Below are positions 56,846-64,000 of a stretch of 64,000 bases of DNA, piece by piece. The notes beneath the pieces were generated by a model. The model made no database searches and was not told the DNA's origin. It saw only the letters and a program-made list of their open reading frames with translations. The stretch's first letter is position 1, and every line of letters starts with the position of its first letter. The DNA is from Chromatiales bacterium (ex Bugula neritina AB1) (GTDB lineage Bacteria > Pseudomonadota > Gammaproteobacteria > Granulosicoccales > Granulosicoccaceae), in assembly GCA_001730015.1 (NCBI GenBank), contig MDLA01000081.1, forward strand, positions 1 through 64,000, in the 5' to 3' direction. Both the position numbers and the translations under genes were made by a program.

Positions 56846-57082
56846 TTGATAACTGAAGAAGCAGTCAGGCAGTTTATTCAAAATGAGCTGGACATCGACG
56901 ACACCTCAATAGCTGGCAGCACACCATTGTTCAGTTCAGGAATGATTGATAGCTTTTCGCTGATTTCTCTCATGAGTTTTATAGAGGATAATGGAAACAT
57001 TCGCGTCAATCCCACCGAAGTAACCCTCGAGAACTTTGATTCTATCGATAAAATATTGGCGTATATCCAGCAAAAAACATGA
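56846..57082 (+). CDS. Acyl/peptidyl carrier protein (DltC-like position)
   Basis: 78 residues from TTG at 56846, which has AGGGA eight bases upstream; a TTG at 56813 is a longer alternative. Helical ACP fold: MITEEAVRQFIQNELDID, then the phosphopantetheine Ser S36 in FSSGMIDSFSLISL, the DSF variant of the usual DSL motif. It carries an activated acyl or aminoacyl group on a 4'-phosphopantetheine arm. It overlaps the decarboxylase gene by 4 bases, so carrier and decarboxylase are made together. Confidence 0.9.
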   Translation: MITEEAVRQFIQNELDIDDTSIAGSTPLFSSGMIDSFSLISLMSFIEDNGNIRVNPTEVTLENFDSIDKILAYIQQKT

Positions 57083-58320
57083 TTGCAACAAACCCTGACT
57101 GGTCCGCACTACATACCTTCGTAGAGAATATCAGCTCCGATGACCAAACCCCGTGTTACGTATATAATGACGAACTGCAACGTTTAAGAGTCAACCAGCT
57201 TCACACCCTGTTTTCAGATCAGTTTTCCCTAAGCTACGCTGTAAAGGCGAACCCCAACCCGAAAATTCTTGGCACGTTTAACGAATTGATCAAACACTTC
57301 GACGCCTCCTCTATAGGCGAAGTCAGGCTCGCCATCAGCGCAGGCGCGGCGCCAGAGAATATTACCTTCACCGGGCCGGCAAAAAAAAAGTCAGAAATTA
57401 GACAGGCAATAGAACTTGGCATTGGCGCATTGGTTATTGAATCAGCAAGAGAGGCCGATCTCGCTGCAGCACTTTGCAGGACCCTCAATCGAACGCAGAA
57501 TATACTGGTTAGAATTAATCCTGCAAACACGCCAAAACTTTTTTCTGCAAAGATGGCGGGTAAACACAGTCAGTTTGGAGTGGATGAAAAAAACCTGGAA
57601 ACTAACCTCGGTTCGATCCTGGCGCACAAAGAACTGACCCTCGATGGATTCCACATTTATTCAGGTACAAATTGCCTGGCAGTTGATGCGCTGGTAGAGA
57701 ACTTTCAATCAATGCTTGAATCGTTTAAAAAAGCATCTCAATGGGCAAATATAAACCCGCGCCGACTCATTTTTGGAAGTGGATTCGGCGTACCGTATTT
57801 CTCCGGAGAAACAGAACTGCACATACTGACAGCAGCAAAGCAGATCAATGCACTTATAGATCAGTTTACAGCTGGTCAGAATTTTCGTCACACCCGATGC
57901 ATACTTGAGCTCGGGCGCTGGTTAATTGCTCCCTGTGGTGTGCTATTAACCAGCGTGGTCAGTAAGAAGAGCACCGAAGATGTGGAATTTAGAATTTGCG
58001 ATGCCGGTTTCAACAATCACCTGGCAGCTTGCGGCTTAATGGGCACAGTCATCCGCAGGAATTGGGCAATTGAAAATCTGAGCAGCAGCACAGGCACAAA
58101 AAAACTGTTTACACTGGTCGGCCCTCTTTGTACATCTATTGACCTTATCGCACAGGGTATCGAGTTACCTGATACGAATATTGGCGACGTTCTGGCCATC
58201 CCCATGTCCGGTGCCTATGGCTATAGCGCGAGTCCGCTAAATTTTATCAGCCACCCTCCACCGACTGAATATCTTATTCGAAACAATACAATGCACAACA
58301 TAACCACGACGCATAGTTAA
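57079..58320 (+). CDS. Fold-type III PLP-dependent decarboxylase (DapDC/ODC family) next to an ACP
   Basis: 413 residues. The PLP Lys is K56 in LSYAVKANPNP. Also present are HIYSGTN (H192), the glycine-rich phosphate loop GSGFGVPY (233-240), ELGR (277-280) and C351 in GPLCTSID. Diaminopimelate decarboxylases normally have a Glu after that Cys (CES.D); here it is Thr, so the substrate is probably not meso-diaminopimelate. The layout resembles the decarboxylases of exosortase-associated clusters and BtrK, which decarboxylates glutamyl-ACP. Its coupling to an ACP and a dlt-like set suggests a carrier-bound amino acid as substrate; this is inferred. The active form is usually a dimer. Confidence 0.88.
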   Translation: MIATNPDWSALHTFVENISSDDQTPCYVYNDELQRLRVNQLHTLFSDQFSLSYAVKANPNPKILGTFNELIKHFDASSIGEVRLAISAGAAPENITFTGPAKKKSEIRQAIELGIGALVIESAREADLAAALCRTLNRTQNILVRINPANTPKLFSAKMAGKHSQFGVDEKNLETNLGSILAHKELTLDGFHIYSGTNCLAVDALVENFQSMLESFKKASQWANINPRRLIFGSGFGVPYFSGETELHILTAAKQINALIDQFTAGQNFRHTRCILELGRWLIAPCGVLLTSVVSKKSTEDVEFRICDAGFNNHLAACGLMGTVIRRNWAIENLSSSTGTKKLFTLVGPLCTSIDLIAQGIELPDTNIGDVLAIPMSGAYGYSASPLNFISHPPPTEYLIRNNTMHNITTTHS

Positions 58321-58349
58321 CGGGCATCTGCACTATTTAGTTATAACGT

Positions 58350-59003
58350 AGAAACCTACGTCCTCAGGACGTGGTCAGAGGACTAAGGCTTTGCCGATGG
58401 TCCAACTCAATGGTATTCCTATATTGAGCTGTCCCCACAGCCTCAAAAGAGGAAAACCAATGAGTCGATTCAAGAAGTTATCACATACAATTTGGCACTG
58501 TCACTATCATTTTGTCTGGACCCCGAAATATCGGTATCGTGTGCTGCAGGGAGCTGTAAAACAGGAGGCAGAAAATTGTATCCGGGCATTTTCGGAGCAA
58601 AAGAAGTGTGAGATTGTGGAGTTAAATGTACAAATAGATCATGTTCACTTGATTGTAGCGATCCCACCGAAGCTGTCGGTGTCGGATTATGCAGGAATAG
58701 TGAAGGGGAGGTCGGCGATCCGAATATTAGGAAGGTTTAAGGCGTTGAGACGTAAGCCGTACTGGGGAAACCATTTCTGGACGAAAGGATACTGTGTGGA
58801 TACGGTTGGTTTGGACATGGAGAAGATCCAGGCATACGTCAAGTATCAGGATGCAAAAGATAAGCAATATGAACAACGTCAACTATGCCTATAACCAAAA
58901 CGGACTGTGGGGAGGTTCAACCCTAGCCGTCTTTGACGGCTAGGCATACTGAGCCCCTCTGGGGCTGACCCAAGCCCCTGCGCTCCGCGTAGGGATTTTT
59001 TAG
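58350..59003 (+). mobile_element. IS200/IS605-family insertion sequence
   Basis: Boundaries approximate. A hairpin (ACGTCC, loop TCA, GGACGT) at 58358-58372 marks the left end. After the transposase there are CCTAGCCGTC/GACGGCTAGG (58922-58944, loop TTT), AGCCCC/GGGGCT (58952-58966) and a stem CCCTGCGC/GCGTAGGG (58976-58994) running into TTTTTTAG. IS200 elements use such end hairpins instead of inverted repeats and make no target duplication. No accessory tnpB is present. Confidence 0.82.
58460..58894 (+). CDS. tnpA: IS200/IS605 Y1 transposase TnpA
   Basis: 144 residues from ATG at 58460, preceded by AGAGGA; the frame opens at 58391 but the family starts MSRFKKLSHTIWHCHYHFVWTPKYR. The HUH motif is QIDHVHLIVAIPP, and the catalytic Tyr lies in AYVKYQDAKDK near the C-terminus. 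It cuts and rejoins single-stranded DNA at the element's hairpin ends. Intact and probably active. The segment CTCAAT..ATTGAG just upstream could fold over the ribosome-binding site, as reported for IS200. Confidence 0.92.
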   Translation: MSRFKKLSHTIWHCHYHFVWTPKYRYRVLQGAVKQEAENCIRAFSEQKKCEIVELNVQIDHVHLIVAIPPKLSVSDYAGIVKGRSAIRILGRFKALRRKPYWGNHFWTKGYCVDTVGLDMEKIQAYVKYQDAKDKQYEQRQLCL

Positions 59004-59040
59004 TTAAAGTCAAGCGCGACGTAAAAATGAGTAGACCGTA

Positions 59041-60561
59041 TTGAGTGTTTATCAAGCATTTGAACACCGGGTGCAAGAGCAGCCAAATACAACAGCAATT
59101 CTCGAAGCGGAAACCTTTGCTACCTACCTGCAGCTGAAAACGAATGCAGAGTATGCAGCTACACAGTTACGACAAAAAGGGCTTGTCACCGGCGATCGAT
59201 GCGTACTTAGCCTGCCGAACTCTATCGTTACTGCGTCGATTATATTAGGTGTATTCAGCATGGGTGCGATACCAGTACTGGTCAACGAGCAGGCACCGGA
59301 TACTCATCTATCTCACGCGATACAAAAAACAGGCAGCAGCGTTGTAATCAGCGCGTCGTCCACTACGGCAATTTCATCGATTAAATCAGTATTATCTGAC
59401 TGTGTCTCTATGACAAAGCAGCAGGCCTGCCCTAACAGGATCGAAGCAGACCTGCCACTGCCGGGAGAATTATCAGCAACCGAAACAGCTTCAATTCTAT
59501 TCACTTCCGGTTCAACCGGCTGGCCAAAAGGTGTAGCACAATCACACCACACCTTGATACAGGCTTCTCGGTGTGTAGCGCATTCGATTGGACTGAAACC
59601 TACGGACAAAATTATCTGCGCCATTCCATGGTCATTCGACTATGGCTTTGGACAACTGCTATCTACATTACTTTTAGGTATTCCCCAGATACTGCCAGCT
59701 GCCAATGACCCTTTCAGTGTCTGTCGCGCCATCGAAACACAAAAGCCGACAGTTTTTGCCGGTGTCCCCTCTCTATTTGCTTCGCTGTTCCGTGGTGTAT
59801 CGCCGATCCGCGATACCAATTGCGCATCAATCCGGTTAGTCACCAATACAGGATCCAGCATTCCTGCCTCTATCAGGGAAGATTTATTTCATTTTTTCGA
59901 TGCCAGCAAATTTTCATTCAACTATGGTCTCACTGAAACCTATCGATCCACCAGCCTACCGTGGCAGTTGGCGAAAACCGATCCTGATTCAGTTGGCAGC
60001 GCTATTCAGGGAGTGACTTTGCAGGTATTAAGAAATGATGGATCGCCGGCAAATGTTAACGAGACCGGTGAAATCATCCACAGCGGAGTTGGAACTTTCC
60101 AGGGGTACTGGTCAGACTCGATTATCACCGCGAAGGTTCGCCGACCTGTAGTCACTCAAAGTAAATCCGGCAAATCGACTGAACCTGCCGTTTACACCGG
60201 CGATTTGGGCGCACTGGACCACCGGGGAATGCTCTACATCTCGGGCAGAAAAGACAGACAGCTCAAATCGATGGGCGTCAAGGTCAACCCTGAAGAGATT
60301 GAAAGATTGCTGCTGGATCTACCCACGGTAGAAGATCTGGCTATAGTATCTACACCCCATGACATCATCGGTGACATGATCGTCGCCGTTGTGGTTCCGA
60401 AACCCGACGTAAAAGATACAATCAGTGAACTTCAAAAACTGGCACCTCGCCTGCTGAGCCCGTTTATGCTACCCAGAAAGTACATCACTGTTGAAAAACT
60501 ACCTCGAACCGCAACCGGTAAAATAGATCACGCAACGATCCGTGCGATGGTTAGCGGGTAA
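59041..60561 (+). CDS. AMP-forming acyl/amino-acid ligase (DltA-like position)
   Basis: 506 residues, TTG start at 59041; the start codon overlaps the stop of a 5-codon frame (ATG at 59028) as TTGA. The adenylation motif A3 is LFTSGSTGWPKGV (about 153-165), the A4/A5 region has WSFDYGFGQLLSTL, then GLTETYRSTSLP, GDLGALD and SGRKDRQLKSMGVKVN, with the catalytic Lys K494 in ATGKIDHA. The FDYG pattern and overall order resemble the ligases associated with exosortase clusters, and functionally it stands where DltA stands in dlt operons: loading an acid onto the carrier protein. The substrate is not known. It lies just after the IS element, so its original upstream leader may have been displaced. 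Confidence 0.88.
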   Translation: MSVYQAFEHRVQEQPNTTAILEAETFATYLQLKTNAEYAATQLRQKGLVTGDRCVLSLPNSIVTASIILGVFSMGAIPVLVNEQAPDTHLSHAIQKTGSSVVISASSTTAISSIKSVLSDCVSMTKQQACPNRIEADLPLPGELSATETASILFTSGSTGWPKGVAQSHHTLIQASRCVAHSIGLKPTDKIICAIPWSFDYGFGQLLSTLLLGIPQILPAANDPFSVCRAIETQKPTVFAGVPSLFASLFRGVSPIRDTNCASIRLVTNTGSSIPASIREDLFHFFDASKFSFNYGLTETYRSTSLPWQLAKTDPDSVGSAIQGVTLQVLRNDGSPANVNETGEIIHSGVGTFQGYWSDSIITAKVRRPVVTQSKSGKSTEPAVYTGDLGALDHRGMLYISGRKDRQLKSMGVKVNPEEIERLLLDLPTVEDLAIVSTPHDIIGDMIVAVVVPKPDVKDTISELQKLAPRLLSPFMLPRKYITVEKLPRTATGKIDHATIRAMVSG

Positions 60562-61655
60562 TGTACACCTCCCGTGTCAGAGCCTCCACACTGGTATTTT
60601 GTCGAGGTATCTATAAGCCTTCCGCGCTTTCACTTGTGGTATGCGGCGCAACTGTTGCTGCTTGCATCGCGTTGTATTTCAAAATCGCGACACCGCAATT
60701 TATCATAGAAAACACACCGCGACTGGCCACCTACGATGGAGACGACGATATATTTATCACATCAGACATCCTCCGCCTGCGGCATGAAACAACACCTCAA
60801 CGTACCGTATACCTCGTTGGCGACAGCGCATTGAGGGAAGTAGTCATGGAACATCAACTGGCTATAGAGTTGAAAAATGCAGGGCAGGCACACAGAATTA
60901 TGGACCTTCGAAGTGGCGGCCAGACTCTGCTGGAATCGCTTGCGATAATCGACAACATTAACTCCATCTCCAGCGGCCTTGTTGTGCTGGGGGTATCTGC
61001 AAGAACCTTCCACCTGGAAAAAACAGACTACGACAGTGCTGCCACTGGAAACAGACGCGGATTTACGTCTTCTGCGTTATCCGATTTCCTGATAGCCAGT
61101 GGAAAAAAAAGTTTCCGTATCACCGGTGTATATGCAATAGACAATTTTCATTTCCTGCTACCGCGACTGATCGAGCACTGGCGTGCGCCAGAGGGACGAA
61201 TAACCAAACGGGTGGCTCACCAGGAACTCCATCAGCCACCGCAGCCACTGAGCGAGCTGACCGCAAGTATCCAGGAATACATCCGGGAATTGTCGCTTCC
61301 GTTCGAAAACTTCGAAAAACGCTCGAGGAACGGACTTGCAGTACTACAGGCCATCGCTGAAAATGTTAATCGCAATAATGGCCTGGATTTATTGTTAATT
61401 GAAAAACCGCTGAATCCATTATTTATTCATCAATACCTGCCAGACAGCTTTGTACAAAAGTACCAACACCTCATGACAAAGATTGCAGTACGCCTTAATG
61501 TTTCCTACCTCAACCCGGTACATCATTTCAAACCTGATCCCGCAGACTTCACCGATTTAATCCACGTTACTGGTGGTGTTACGGCAATGAAATATACCTC
61601 TTTGCTCGCGGAGGGCATTACTAATGCCCGCAATCAGCAAACAGCCCATCCGTAG
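60561..61655 (+). CDS. DltD-like SGNH-type acyl-transfer protein
   Basis: 364 residues with a single N-terminal membrane helix (SALSLVVCGATVAACIALYF, about 21-40), the rest periplasmic. The SGNH block I Ser is S89 in YLVGDSALREVV, and the C-terminal D332-x2-H335 (DLIHVTGG) gives the Asp-His pair, as in DltD and AlgX/AlgJ relatives. It would take the acyl group delivered by the MBOAT protein and put it on a surface polymer. The ligase stop overlaps this ATG by 1 base. The catalytic reading is by family pattern. Confidence 0.8.
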   Translation: MYTSRVRASTLVFCRGIYKPSALSLVVCGATVAACIALYFKIATPQFIIENTPRLATYDGDDDIFITSDILRLRHETTPQRTVYLVGDSALREVVMEHQLAIELKNAGQAHRIMDLRSGGQTLLESLAIIDNINSISSGLVVLGVSARTFHLEKTDYDSAATGNRRGFTSSALSDFLIASGKKSFRITGVYAIDNFHFLLPRLIEHWRAPEGRITKRVAHQELHQPPQPLSELTASIQEYIRELSLPFENFEKRSRNGLAVLQAIAENVNRNNGLDLLLIEKPLNPLFIHQYLPDSFVQKYQHLMTKIAVRLNVSYLNPVHHFKPDPADFTDLIHVTGGVTAMKYTSLLAEGITNARNQQTAHP

Positions 61656-61704
61656 CATAGAGCTGCCTTCTCTTTCTGTGCTCAACATTCCACACCATAC
61701 TACT

Positions 61705-61836
61705 ATGAATACAATTATCGAACGATTCGCCCAGTGCCTGCGCGGGGTGGCTCTCGGGTTAGCAGTTACCTACGCACTCGTGCTTTTACTACAAACCGAG
61801 GCTGGGATAACAATATTCAGGTATCAGGGCTTCTGA
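61705..61836 (+). CDS. DltX-like membrane microprotein with C-terminal FxYxxF motif
   Basis: 43 residues from ATG at 61705 (an upstream in-frame ATG at 61624 would lie in the DltD-like gene). One membrane helix (VALGLAVTYALVLLLQ, about 15-30), then the C-terminus TEAGITIFRYQGF. FRYQGF fits the FxYxxF end reported for DltX, where the Tyr (here Y40) is proposed to hold the acyl group between the MBOAT and DltD. Position between the DltD-like and MBOAT genes fits this role. Short, but motif, topology and place agree. Confidence 0.75.
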   Translation: MNTIIERFAQCLRGVALGLAVTYALVLLLQTEAGITIFRYQGF

Positions 61837-61873
61837 TACTTATCGCTATTGCGGGATATAAGTAAACTGACTG

Positions 61874-63127
61874 TTGATTACTGAAGCACACTACTGGATT
61901 TTCCTGGCAATTGCATTCGCAGTTGTAAGCCTGGTGCCAGTAAGAATCCGGTTGCAGTGCATCGGCCTGTTATCGTTTGTTTGTCTATTTTTCCTGCTCG
62001 CCTCTGTCGCGCCCGATGCAGACATGACAAGTGAGACTCACTCACTTCATCTATACAAGCAAAATTATTACGTTATTTACTGGCTAACATTCTGGACGTT
62101 TGTATTTTTCTATGTACCGAAAATTGCCGCCCTGAAAAAACTACCCGGATCATCTTTAAACATGCTCCTGATCGGGGCAATCGTCTCATACCTGTTTTAC
62201 TCAAAGTACATTCCTGAAATCGTTCGAACCGTAGCCGGAGCCACACCAGACACCAGGACACTGATACCGCTTGGGGTAAGCTATTTTTCCTTTAAGCTAA
62301 TCCACTACCTGATCGAAAATTCACGCGGCAGATTTCAACCTCACGGTTTTTTCCAGTTCTGGACTTATATATTTCTATTTCCAATTTATACCGCTGGTCC
62401 GATCGAACGCTTCGATAATTTCCAGAGGAACTGCCTTTCAACGGACCGAAGAACAGATATCATCGAAGGTTTAACGCGGATCATCTATGGCCTAATCAAA
62501 AAATTTGTTATTTCAGGGGTGCTGTTGGTCGGTTTACTTAGTTCCCATACTGGCGACTCCGTTCTTTCTGATCTGGAAACTATTGCGCACTACAAGGTGT
62601 GGGGGTTCCTACTCCTCAACTATCTGATCATCTACCTGGACTTCAGCGCCTACAGTGACATTGCTATTGGCTCTTCCAGGCTATTGGGAATCCGGATTGG
62701 AGAGAATTTCAACTGGCCGATCCTGGCGACCAATATAACAATTCTGTGGAAACGCTGGCATATGTCTCTCGGCAACTGGTGTCAGTCCTACATATATATG
62801 CCCGCCATAGGCTTTAGCAGAAACCCTTACTTTGCAATTTTTTTGACCTTCCTTGCAATAGGACTGTGGCACGGTGGAAACTATACCTGGGTGGCGTGGG
62901 GACTGTATCAGGGCATCGGCGTCGTTACCTATCGAATCTGGTCGAAATCCACTGCGGGAAAATACCTTGCAGACAAACGCTCGTGGATTACAAATAGTCT
63001 GGCCATTGCAATGACCAATATCTGGATGGCCGGCAGTTTCGCTTTTACGGCGACATACCACACCGGATCAATCAGCGATGTAAGAGACGCATTCTTTATT
63101 CTCGGGAAATGCCTGTTTCTAATTTAA
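61874..63127 (+). CDS. MBOAT family O-acyltransferase (DltB/AlgI-like)
   Basis: 417 residues from TTG at 61874 (MITEAHYWIFLAIAFAVVS). About ten membrane helices; the MBOAT core ILWKRWHMSLGNWCQSYIYMPAIGFSRN and the active His H333 in GLWHGGNYTWVAWGLYQGIG are present. DltB/AlgI-type proteins pass an acyl group from a cytoplasmic carrier across the membrane. It is the last gene of the cluster. A better start codon was not found, but the N-terminus is typical. Confidence 0.88.
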   Translation: MITEAHYWIFLAIAFAVVSLVPVRIRLQCIGLLSFVCLFFLLASVAPDADMTSETHSLHLYKQNYYVIYWLTFWTFVFFYVPKIAALKKLPGSSLNMLLIGAIVSYLFYSKYIPEIVRTVAGATPDTRTLIPLGVSYFSFKLIHYLIENSRGRFQPHGFFQFWTYIFLFPIYTAGPIERFDNFQRNCLSTDRRTDIIEGLTRIIYGLIKKFVISGVLLVGLLSSHTGDSVLSDLETIAHYKVWGFLLLNYLIIYLDFSAYSDIAIGSSRLLGIRIGENFNWPILATNITILWKRWHMSLGNWCQSYIYMPAIGFSRNPYFAIFLTFLAIGLWHGGNYTWVAWGLYQGIGVVTYRIWSKSTAGKYLADKRSWITNSLAIAMTNIWMAGSFAFTATYHTGSISDVRDAFFILGKCLFLI

Positions 63128-63154: not shown

Positions 63155-63832
63155 TTACTCTTGCGCGCTGTAATCCATTATCCGGCTGCCCTCTCTGATG
63201 GGCTTCAGTGTTAAGGCTGAACCAATAGCAAGGGTATTATCGGGTACATCTGTATGCACCCGGGTTGCAGCAGCCACAACTGCTCCAGCACCAATCCGTA
63301 CCCCTGGCAATAGAGTTGCCCCGGCACCAACCATAGCCCCTTCACCAATAAGCACACTACTGGTGATACTCACCCCGGGCCCAATTGAAGCGTAGTCGCC
63401 AATCATGACATGGTGACCTATATTTGTGCTGCGGTTTATGAATACAAATTGCCCGATTCTCGAGGACGAACCAACAGCAGTTAGCGCATTGACATAGCTG
63501 CCTTCGCCAACAGCAGTGGTACCAGCGACAACAGCTGATGAATCCACCAGAGCCAGCGGATTTTCAAACCCGCTGACTGATGCCAGTTCGCGCAACTGCC
63601 GTCTTCTGACTGGAGAAAACGCTGCAGGTACATAGGGGAGCGTACGCTGGTTGCCGGAGACCTCATCAATTGCTATCAGCCGGCTTCGATCCGGCAGCCT
63701 GTCAGGGCGCTGATCAACATTTATTATTGCAGCAACCTTAAGCCCAAGCCGCAGACAGGAATCGACATAGTCGCCGATCAACGGAGTACGCGCCCCGAAC
63801 AGGACAATCGAATTCTTTGATTTTTCAGACAA
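63155..63832 (-). CDS. NeuD/PglD-like hexapeptide-repeat acyltransferase
   Basis: 225 residues from TTG at 63832, which has AGAGGGG a few bases upstream; a GTG at 63853 lacks one. N-terminal PglD-like Rossmann domain (SIVLFGARTPLIGDYVDSCLRLGLKVAAI), then a left-handed beta-helix of hexapeptide repeats (IGQFVFINRSTNIGHHVMIGDYASIGPGVSI..). The catalytic His is in the NIGHHVMIG region. Such enzymes O- or N-acetylate sugars in glycan synthesis. Convergent with the MBOAT gene; may belong to the same glycan-modification locus. Confidence 0.85.
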   Translation of the reverse strand: MSEKSKNSIVLFGARTPLIGDYVDSCLRLGLKVAAIINVDQRPDRLPDRSRLIAIDEVSGNQRTLPYVPAAFSPVRRRQLRELASVSGFENPLALVDSSAVVAGTTAVGEGSYVNALTAVGSSSRIGQFVFINRSTNIGHHVMIGDYASIGPGVSITSSVLIGEGAMVGAGATLLPGVRIGAGAVVAAATRVHTDVPDNTLAIGSALTLKPIREGSRIMDYSAQE

Positions 63833-64000
63833 TGGAACCCCTCTTAACTGCACTGGAAAGAGCGCTAAACGGATATTAAAGCACCGGCCGTGATCTGCGA
63901 AATTTCTATTGTCATATCACTTCGGCATATCACTATAGCGAAATGAAACAGGGTGGTGCATTTATTCACTGTCGGGGTTCGGGTTTAATCTACATGAAGT

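Follow-up and report, generated by a model that had tools for sequence, protein, structure and literature searches.

Why should a set of genes that resembles a dlt operon include a gene for a pyridoxal phosphate (PLP) decarboxylase? The question is raised by a six-gene cluster on the plus strand at positions 56846-63127 of a 64,000-nucleotide stretch of DNA from Chromatiales bacterium (ex Bugula neritina AB1). We refer to the whole stretch as the window; its contig (MDLA01000081.1, C81) belongs to a 7.44-Mb genome. A preliminary description of the window had proposed that an amino acid is loaded onto the cluster's carrier protein, decarboxylated there, and moved by a Dlt-like relay onto an envelope glycan. 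Conserved residues and the conservation of the genes as a set support the loading, the on-carrier decarboxylation and the Dlt-like transfer; our results refine the loading to a side-chain carboxyl group and leave the envelope glycan as a conjectural acceptor. Judging from sequence and by analogy with characterized systems, we consider the following course probable: the carrier receives an amino dicarboxylic acid through its side chain, the acid is decarboxylated there, and a Dlt-type route exports the product to an envelope acceptor. All six open reading frames (ORFs) are present and open, and they lie in the following order.

56846..57082, plus strand: free-standing acyl carrier protein, 78 amino acids (PF00550, 30.4 bits)
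57079..58320, plus strand: fold-type III PLP decarboxylase of the BtrK/TIGR03099 kind (PF02784/PF00278)
59041..60561, plus strand: adenylating ligase of the VinN kind (PF00501, 205 bits)
60561..61655, plus strand: DltD-like SGNH protein (AlphaFold 2 model and Foldseek)
61705..61836, plus strand: DltX-like membrane microprotein, 43 amino acids, with the C-terminus FRYQGF, a form of FXYXXF
61874..63127, plus strand: DltB-like MBOAT (PF03062, 83.8 bits)

The Pfam and NCBIfam matches, the DltD fold match and the FRYQGF ending bear out the six-gene inventory given in the preliminary description, which had also called for a survey of co-occurrence. In that survey, all three loci with this type of MBOAT retain the complete six-gene set: the window, locus L016 in a genome of the same genus (G008, contig CALGJU010000177.1), and locus L040 in a genome from another class of Pseudomonadota (G482). 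The gene order is identical in all three. The L016 proteins are 44-62% identical to those of the window (51% for the microprotein and 62% for the carrier), and the L040 proteins are more distant (carrier 48%, decarboxylase 40%, MBOAT 39%, ligase 33%, and DltD-like protein about 19-23%). The grouping is not chance, since the order recurs in L016 and L040. In L040, a Sulfotransferase_3-family gene on the minus strand (L040:12970-13899) lies between the decarboxylase and ligase genes; its product might act on the same acceptor.

In a tree, the decarboxylases from the window, L016 and L040 make up a single clade (support 99/90), and its sister group comes from alphaproteobacterial GT61/hexapeptide-acyltransferase clusters. 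The eight sequences group together at 100/100, and the exosortase-type, KASIII-type and LysA sequences fall outside them. A quick ligase tree likewise groups the window, L016 and L040, though on long branches. Because the three decarboxylases form one clade, the decarboxylase travels with this kind of MBOAT rather than being a chance neighbor.

The set is nevertheless rare against the wider decarboxylase family, which is common (42 of 398 genomes of the phylum). An MBOAT profile (E <= 1e-50) matched three of the same 398 genomes, one of which (G441) has a different loader, and none of 318 genomes in the class of G570 contained an MBOAT of this type (E <= 1e-60). A profile of the DltD-like protein matched 2 of 48 genomes of the family and, in a 369-genome sample of the class, the window's own genome only, a scarcity that reflects the low reach of the profile as much as rarity. 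A scan of contigs with the decarboxylase alignment returned only CALGJU010000177.1 and a LysA-like gene in Methylotenera. Among plasmids, there were no DltD-like matches, and the only matches were MBOATs with 30-35% identity over part of the query.

The carrier gene begins with a TTG codon downstream of a plausible ribosome-binding site, and its product carries the phosphopantetheine attachment residue, Ser36, in LFSSGMIDSFSL with a DSF motif. It scores 27 bits against the DltC equivalog model NF003464, under the cut-off of 68. The decarboxylase gene is probably coupled to it in translation, as had been suggested at the outset, because its start codon overlaps the carrier stop codon as ATGA. 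Among solved structures, the decarboxylase matches BtrK best, at 203 bits, with entries named as diaminopimelate decarboxylases reaching at most 129.5 bits; a three-row profile gave 283.7 bits for BtrK versus 201.8 bits for those entries. BtrK is the L-glutamyl-carrier decarboxylase of butirosin synthesis. The PLP-binding Lys56, His192, the glycine loop and the E277-x-GR motif are all in place, and the enzyme also carries the AACG/AASG...RRN insertion that is common to BtrK-like and exosortase-type enzymes. The substrate-binding loop reads GPLCTSID in the window and GPLCTPED in BtrK, versus GPVCESSD in LysA.

The preliminary description had listed, among the findings that would undo its proposal, a decarboxylase acting on free diaminopimelate or arginine only. 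The enzyme of the window scores 223.5 bits against the LysA model TIGR01048 (218-224 bits for the three cluster enzymes), under the cut-off of 297.9, and has GPLCT rather than CES in its loop. A separate, true LysA is encoded elsewhere in all three genomes at 519-536 bits (519 for the lysA of the window genome). On these observations, the decarboxylase is not the housekeeping LysA.

We then considered what the ligase would load onto the carrier. The leading matches of a sequence search included linear gramicidin synthetase and VinN (166 bits for VinN, structure 3wvn). When the ligase is mapped on VinN, D200 corresponds to Asp230, T270 to Ser299, N294 to Met323, Y301 to Lys330 and R302 to Arg331. 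In VinN, (methyl)aspartate is held by its amino and carboxyl groups through Asp230, Ser299 and Arg331 (PMC7756342, PMC12186527, PMC9484153). The position of T270 is Ser or Thr in every decarboxylase-paired ligase, and the VinN-type Arg is present in 17 of 17 such ligases (16 in the alignment plus that of locus L117). It is missing from the second ligases of the same clusters and, among the 21 AMP-binding genes of the window genome with a readable motif, it occurs in one, the cluster's own. The ligase substrate is likely, on these residues, to be an amino dicarboxylic acid. A fatty-acid ligase, another finding that had been named as fatal to the original proposal, is ruled out by the Asp and Arg residues, which point to amino-acid recognition, and by the closeness of the protein to VinN and to amino-acid adenylation domains.

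Characterized relatives of the ligase act in modules of comparable design. VinN, VinL and VinO form the starter module of vicenistatin, for which a glutamate mutase supplies 3-methylaspartate (PMC11284099), and BolO, BolC and BolN form that of bolagladin, in which BolO is proposed to take aspartate (PMC7756342). In vitro, AfcQ, AfcK and AfcP load L-Asp via its side chain and then form beta-alanine on the carrier; AfcQ does not activate beta-alanine, and its matching Arg is proposed to orient L-Asp as in VinN (PMC12186527). At the sequence level, the first half of the window cluster matches the VinN/VinL/VinO module in its ligase residues, its BtrK-kind decarboxylase and its stand-alone carrier. 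Since the ligase probably activates a side-chain carboxyl group in the manner of VinN, BolO and AfcQ, beta-alanyl derived from aspartate is the leading candidate for the transferred group. In a related cluster, L117:8113-13493 (genome G423), the ligase and decarboxylase genes flank one for a fusion of methylaspartate mutase E with a B12-binding domain (PF06368, 472 bits). This is as expected for an aspartate-type substrate, by the same logic as in vicenistatin, and suggests a 3-aminoisobutyryl-carrier in that genome.

The group made on the carrier could instead be 4-aminobutyryl (GABA), if glutamate were loaded and the product exported by the same pathway, as in butirosin. BtrK, to which the decarboxylase is closest among solved structures, does act on a glutamyl-carrier, and the A7/A8 pocket of the ligase differs from that of VinN: the three MBOAT-type ligases have Asn/Tyr at these positions, VinN has Met/Lys, and ligases of the exosortase and GT61 kinds have Met/Phe. 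VinN-type ligases, however, take aspartates (VinN and AfcQ by characterization, BolO by proposal), and the mutase of L117 also argues for an aspartate. We therefore regard glutamate as an unlikely substrate, and the residues favor beta-alanyl as the likeliest transferred group, with GABA second.

A different order of events would have the decarboxylase act first, yielding free beta-alanine, lysine or a polyamine in the cytoplasm, with the ligase loading this finished amine or amino acid for Dlt-like transfer. The fold-type III relatives of the enzyme do include the free-substrate decarboxylases LysA and ODC, and the order of loading and decarboxylation is not visible in sequence. Yet beta-alanine, which AfcQ excludes as a substrate (PMC12186527), would leave the carboxylate-binding Arg of the ligase without a function, and the GPLCT motif, the closeness to BtrK, the overlap of the carrier and decarboxylase genes and the presence of LysA elsewhere all speak against it, so that we consider decarboxylation of a free substrate quite unlikely.

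The second half of the cluster bears on how the carrier-bound group would leave the cytoplasm. Gram-positive bacteria attach D-alanine to their walls through a three-protein relay, and relays of this type, in which a carrier is paired with a microprotein, are known from the D-alanylation of teichoic acids. In such a relay, DltB takes the carrier thioester, and the FXYXXF motif of DltX and of PatA-type MBOATs serves as an acyl shuttle through acyl-Tyr; other MBOAT pathways have neither a carrier nor a microprotein (PMC12148441). The window MBOAT has the conserved residues H296 and H333. Its sole NCBIfam match is the DltB model TIGR04091, at 146.6 bits (165 and 180 bits for its relatives), below the cut-off of 375, and among solved structures DltB scores 135 bits, followed by HHAT at 25 bits. 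By these scores, the MBOAT is related to DltB but not equivalent to it. Its own C-terminus lacks FXYXXF, and the motif instead ends a separate microprotein, as in Dlt. The microprotein occupies the same position in all three loci and ends in FRYQGF in the window and L016 and in FRYAGF in L040 (47 amino acids). Between the window and L016, its 44 codons differ at 20 first, 11 second and 24 third positions, a substitution pattern as expected of a coding gene. Across all retrieved loci, 14 of 7799 small ORFs have such an ending, and this number includes several copies of the microprotein gene itself.

The gene for the DltD-like protein overlaps the ligase stop codon (TAATG). The protein has an N-terminal hydrophobic helix and GDSALRE and DxxH blocks; it has no Pfam or NCBIfam match, and a profile search of the PDB with its alignment returned nothing significant. 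Its AlphaFold 2 model (pLDDT 61, pTM 0.61) was compared with 350,542 PDB chains using Foldseek, and the nine best matches were DltD from several Gram-positive species (E 5e-6 to 1e-3). VIA-align bears out the SGNH fold, with a Z of 12.7 over 256 residues for DltD 6o93; DltD gave the longest alignments (256-264 residues), and small SGNH esterases scored level with it (Z about 11-13).

Given the likeness to DltB, DltX and DltD, the cluster might be taken for an ordinary D-alanylation-like operon, transferring D-Ala or another simple aminoacyl group, that happens to adjoin an unrelated decarboxylase. Against this, the ligase reaches 134 bits with the DltA model TIGR01734, whose cut-off is 559.85, and carries the VinN-type Arg. 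Moreover, none of the three loci lacks the decarboxylase, whose gene in the window overlaps that of the carrier and whose clade follows the kind of MBOAT. We find this explanation extremely unlikely. The second half of the cluster is Dlt-like, but the scores fall short of the cut-offs of the DltA, DltB and DltC models, so that the whole does not qualify as a dlt operon.

From the gene content, its retention across the three loci, the diagnostic residues and motifs and the predicted DltD-like fold, we infer the following chemistry and acceptor. The ligase would adenylate an amino dicarboxylic acid, with L-aspartate the likeliest, at its side-chain carboxyl group and load it onto the carrier, with D200 and T270/R302 holding the amino and alpha-carboxyl groups of the substrate, as the conserved residues indicate. 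The decarboxylase, like BtrK, VinO and AfcP, would then strip the alpha-carboxyl group on the carrier to give a beta-alanyl thioester (or GABA from glutamate), a step suggested by its family and by the gene coupling. By analogy with Dlt, the MBOAT would carry the acyl group across the membrane and hand it to the Tyr in the FRYQGF ending of the microprotein, and the Ser of the DltD-like protein would accept it and esterify an envelope acceptor.

The product could also be a small secreted metabolite, such as a lipopeptide-like compound, with the MBOAT/SGNH pair acting in tailoring only. Related ligase-carrier-decarboxylase sets occur with KASIII-like enzymes (L038, L039, L123), and the bolagladin and AFC-BC11 modules use related sets. 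The three MBOAT clusters, however, contain no synthase, acyl-CoA dehydrogenase or nonribosomal peptide synthetase (NRPS), and descriptions of DltX-type shuttling concern envelope polymers (PMC12148441), which makes a metabolite very unlikely.

Several observations weigh against side-chain loading followed by Dlt-type export. The substrate may differ from plain aspartate because the A7/A8 pocket, unlike that of VinN, is Asn/Tyr. The model of the DltD-like protein is of modest confidence, with a Foldseek TM of about 0.45. The set is rare, with three loci known. No link of the cluster to lipopolysaccharide, capsule or another polymer emerged, and the acceptor is conjectural. Finally, an insertion element inside the operon could reduce expression of the downstream genes. 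That element and the gene following the cluster are as follows.

58333-59004, plus strand: IS200/IS605-family element of ~672 bp (TnpA 58391-58894; NF033573, 142 bits)
63155..63853, minus strand: NeuD/PglD-like hexapeptide sugar acyltransferase (TIGR03570, 113.5 bits, under the cut-off of 160.8)

The IS200 element, which the preliminary description had not listed, fills the gap between the decarboxylase and ligase genes and leaves both intact. Its ends are fixed by other genomic copies, as two other places share them; one of the two, an internally deleted copy of ~385 bp that keeps both ends (G000:C104:21474-21858), looks like a non-autonomous derivative. The corresponding gap in L016 is 61 bp and has no insertion. 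The element is not part of the system.

The NeuD/PglD-like gene is convergent to the cluster; a neighbor of the L016 cluster is 53% identical, and none was seen next to that of L040. Also near the cluster in both Granulosicoccaceae genomes are a type I secretion ABC transporter together with HlyD and, close to this secretion system, a large DUF11-repeat protein (L016:11065-15687 and L017:8070-11603); that of L016 has an internal GDSL/SGNH domain (PF13472, residues 585-745), which was not detected in the L017 copy. Since none of them turned up next to the cluster of L040, the NeuD-like, secretion/HlyD and DUF11 genes are at most local partners or acceptors. A separate locus, L041:312-5482 (G441), encodes, next to an MBOAT, a carrier, a 508-amino acid FMN_red-like protein, a 57-amino acid microprotein ending in LFRYAAF and a 481-amino acid protein with no Pfam match. 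It seems to be a carrier/DltX-type system that uses a different loader.

If the proposed route is correct, its novelty lies in the junction of two known modules, carrier-bound decarboxylation and a Dlt-type relay, in a Gram-negative bacterium. A literature search, with most subscription journals outside its scope, found no paper describing this combination. We offer tentatively, at somewhat less than even confidence, that the cluster carries out a previously undescribed modification of the envelope, with carrier-made beta-alanyl or other omega-aminoacyl esters exported through a DltB/DltX/DltD relay. Such a route would widen the export range of MBOAT-SGNH systems and give a Dlt-type relay a different cationic group. 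By homology, the same chemistry would provide a testable function for the ligase/decarboxylase pairs of the exosortase (PEP-CTERM) and GT61 clusters. For the exosortase pair, whose models TIGR03098 and TIGR03099 NCBIfam labels hypoth_equivalog, the concrete hypothesis is isoaspartyl loading followed by decarboxylation; we found few papers on exosortase clusters, and a function for the pair did not turn up in them.

The exosortase-A-associated pair is homologous to the window ligase and decarboxylase, also has a carrier, and shares the Asp and Arg of the ligase. It belongs to a separate clade, and the cluster proteins do not reach the cut-offs of its models TIGR03098 and TIGR03099 (321 versus 592 bits and 348 versus 478 bits). 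Two hydrolases lie near exosortase-type pairs in many loci; neither was seen at the window cluster, L016 or L040, which have the MBOAT, DltX-like and DltD-like proteins instead. The closest decarboxylases outside the MBOAT loci, at up to 43% identity, come from the GT61/hexapeptide-acyltransferase clusters (Paracoccus, Neorhizobium, G659, G570), which share the ligase, carrier and decarboxylase trio and a glycan context. Unlike the window cluster, these have no MBOAT or DltX found beside them, and a cytoplasmic hexapeptide acyltransferase is their likely transferase. Loci L036, L037, L035, L115 and L116 combine the trio with a GT61 glycosyltransferase and a hexapeptide acyltransferase, and some have an SGNH/CE2_N-type protein; cytoplasmic aminoacylation of a glycan is probable for them.

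The Vin, Bol and Afc modules resemble the first half of the cluster in having a side-chain-activating ligase, a stand-alone carrier and a PLP decarboxylase (BtrK-like in Bol and PLP-dependent in Vin and Afc). They feed a polyketide synthase, NRPS or lipopeptide, whereas the product of the cluster would meet an MBOAT/DltX/DltD relay. PatA/PatB and other MBOAT-SGNH O-acetylation pairs likewise relay through an acyl-Tyr in FXYXXF, but their donor is acetyl-CoA and their motif is fused to the MBOAT, whereas the cluster has a carrier as donor and a separate microprotein. The dlt operon (DltXABCD) shares with the cluster a carrier, an adenylating ligase, a separate FXYXXF microprotein, an SGNH protein of the DltD fold and a DltB-like MBOAT with no C-terminal motif of its own. 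The cluster differs from it in its extra carrier-type decarboxylase, its VinN-kind rather than DltA-kind ligase, its gene order (carrier, decarboxylase, ligase, DltD, DltX, MBOAT) and its Gram-negative hosts, and D-Ala is not the group that we would expect it to transfer.

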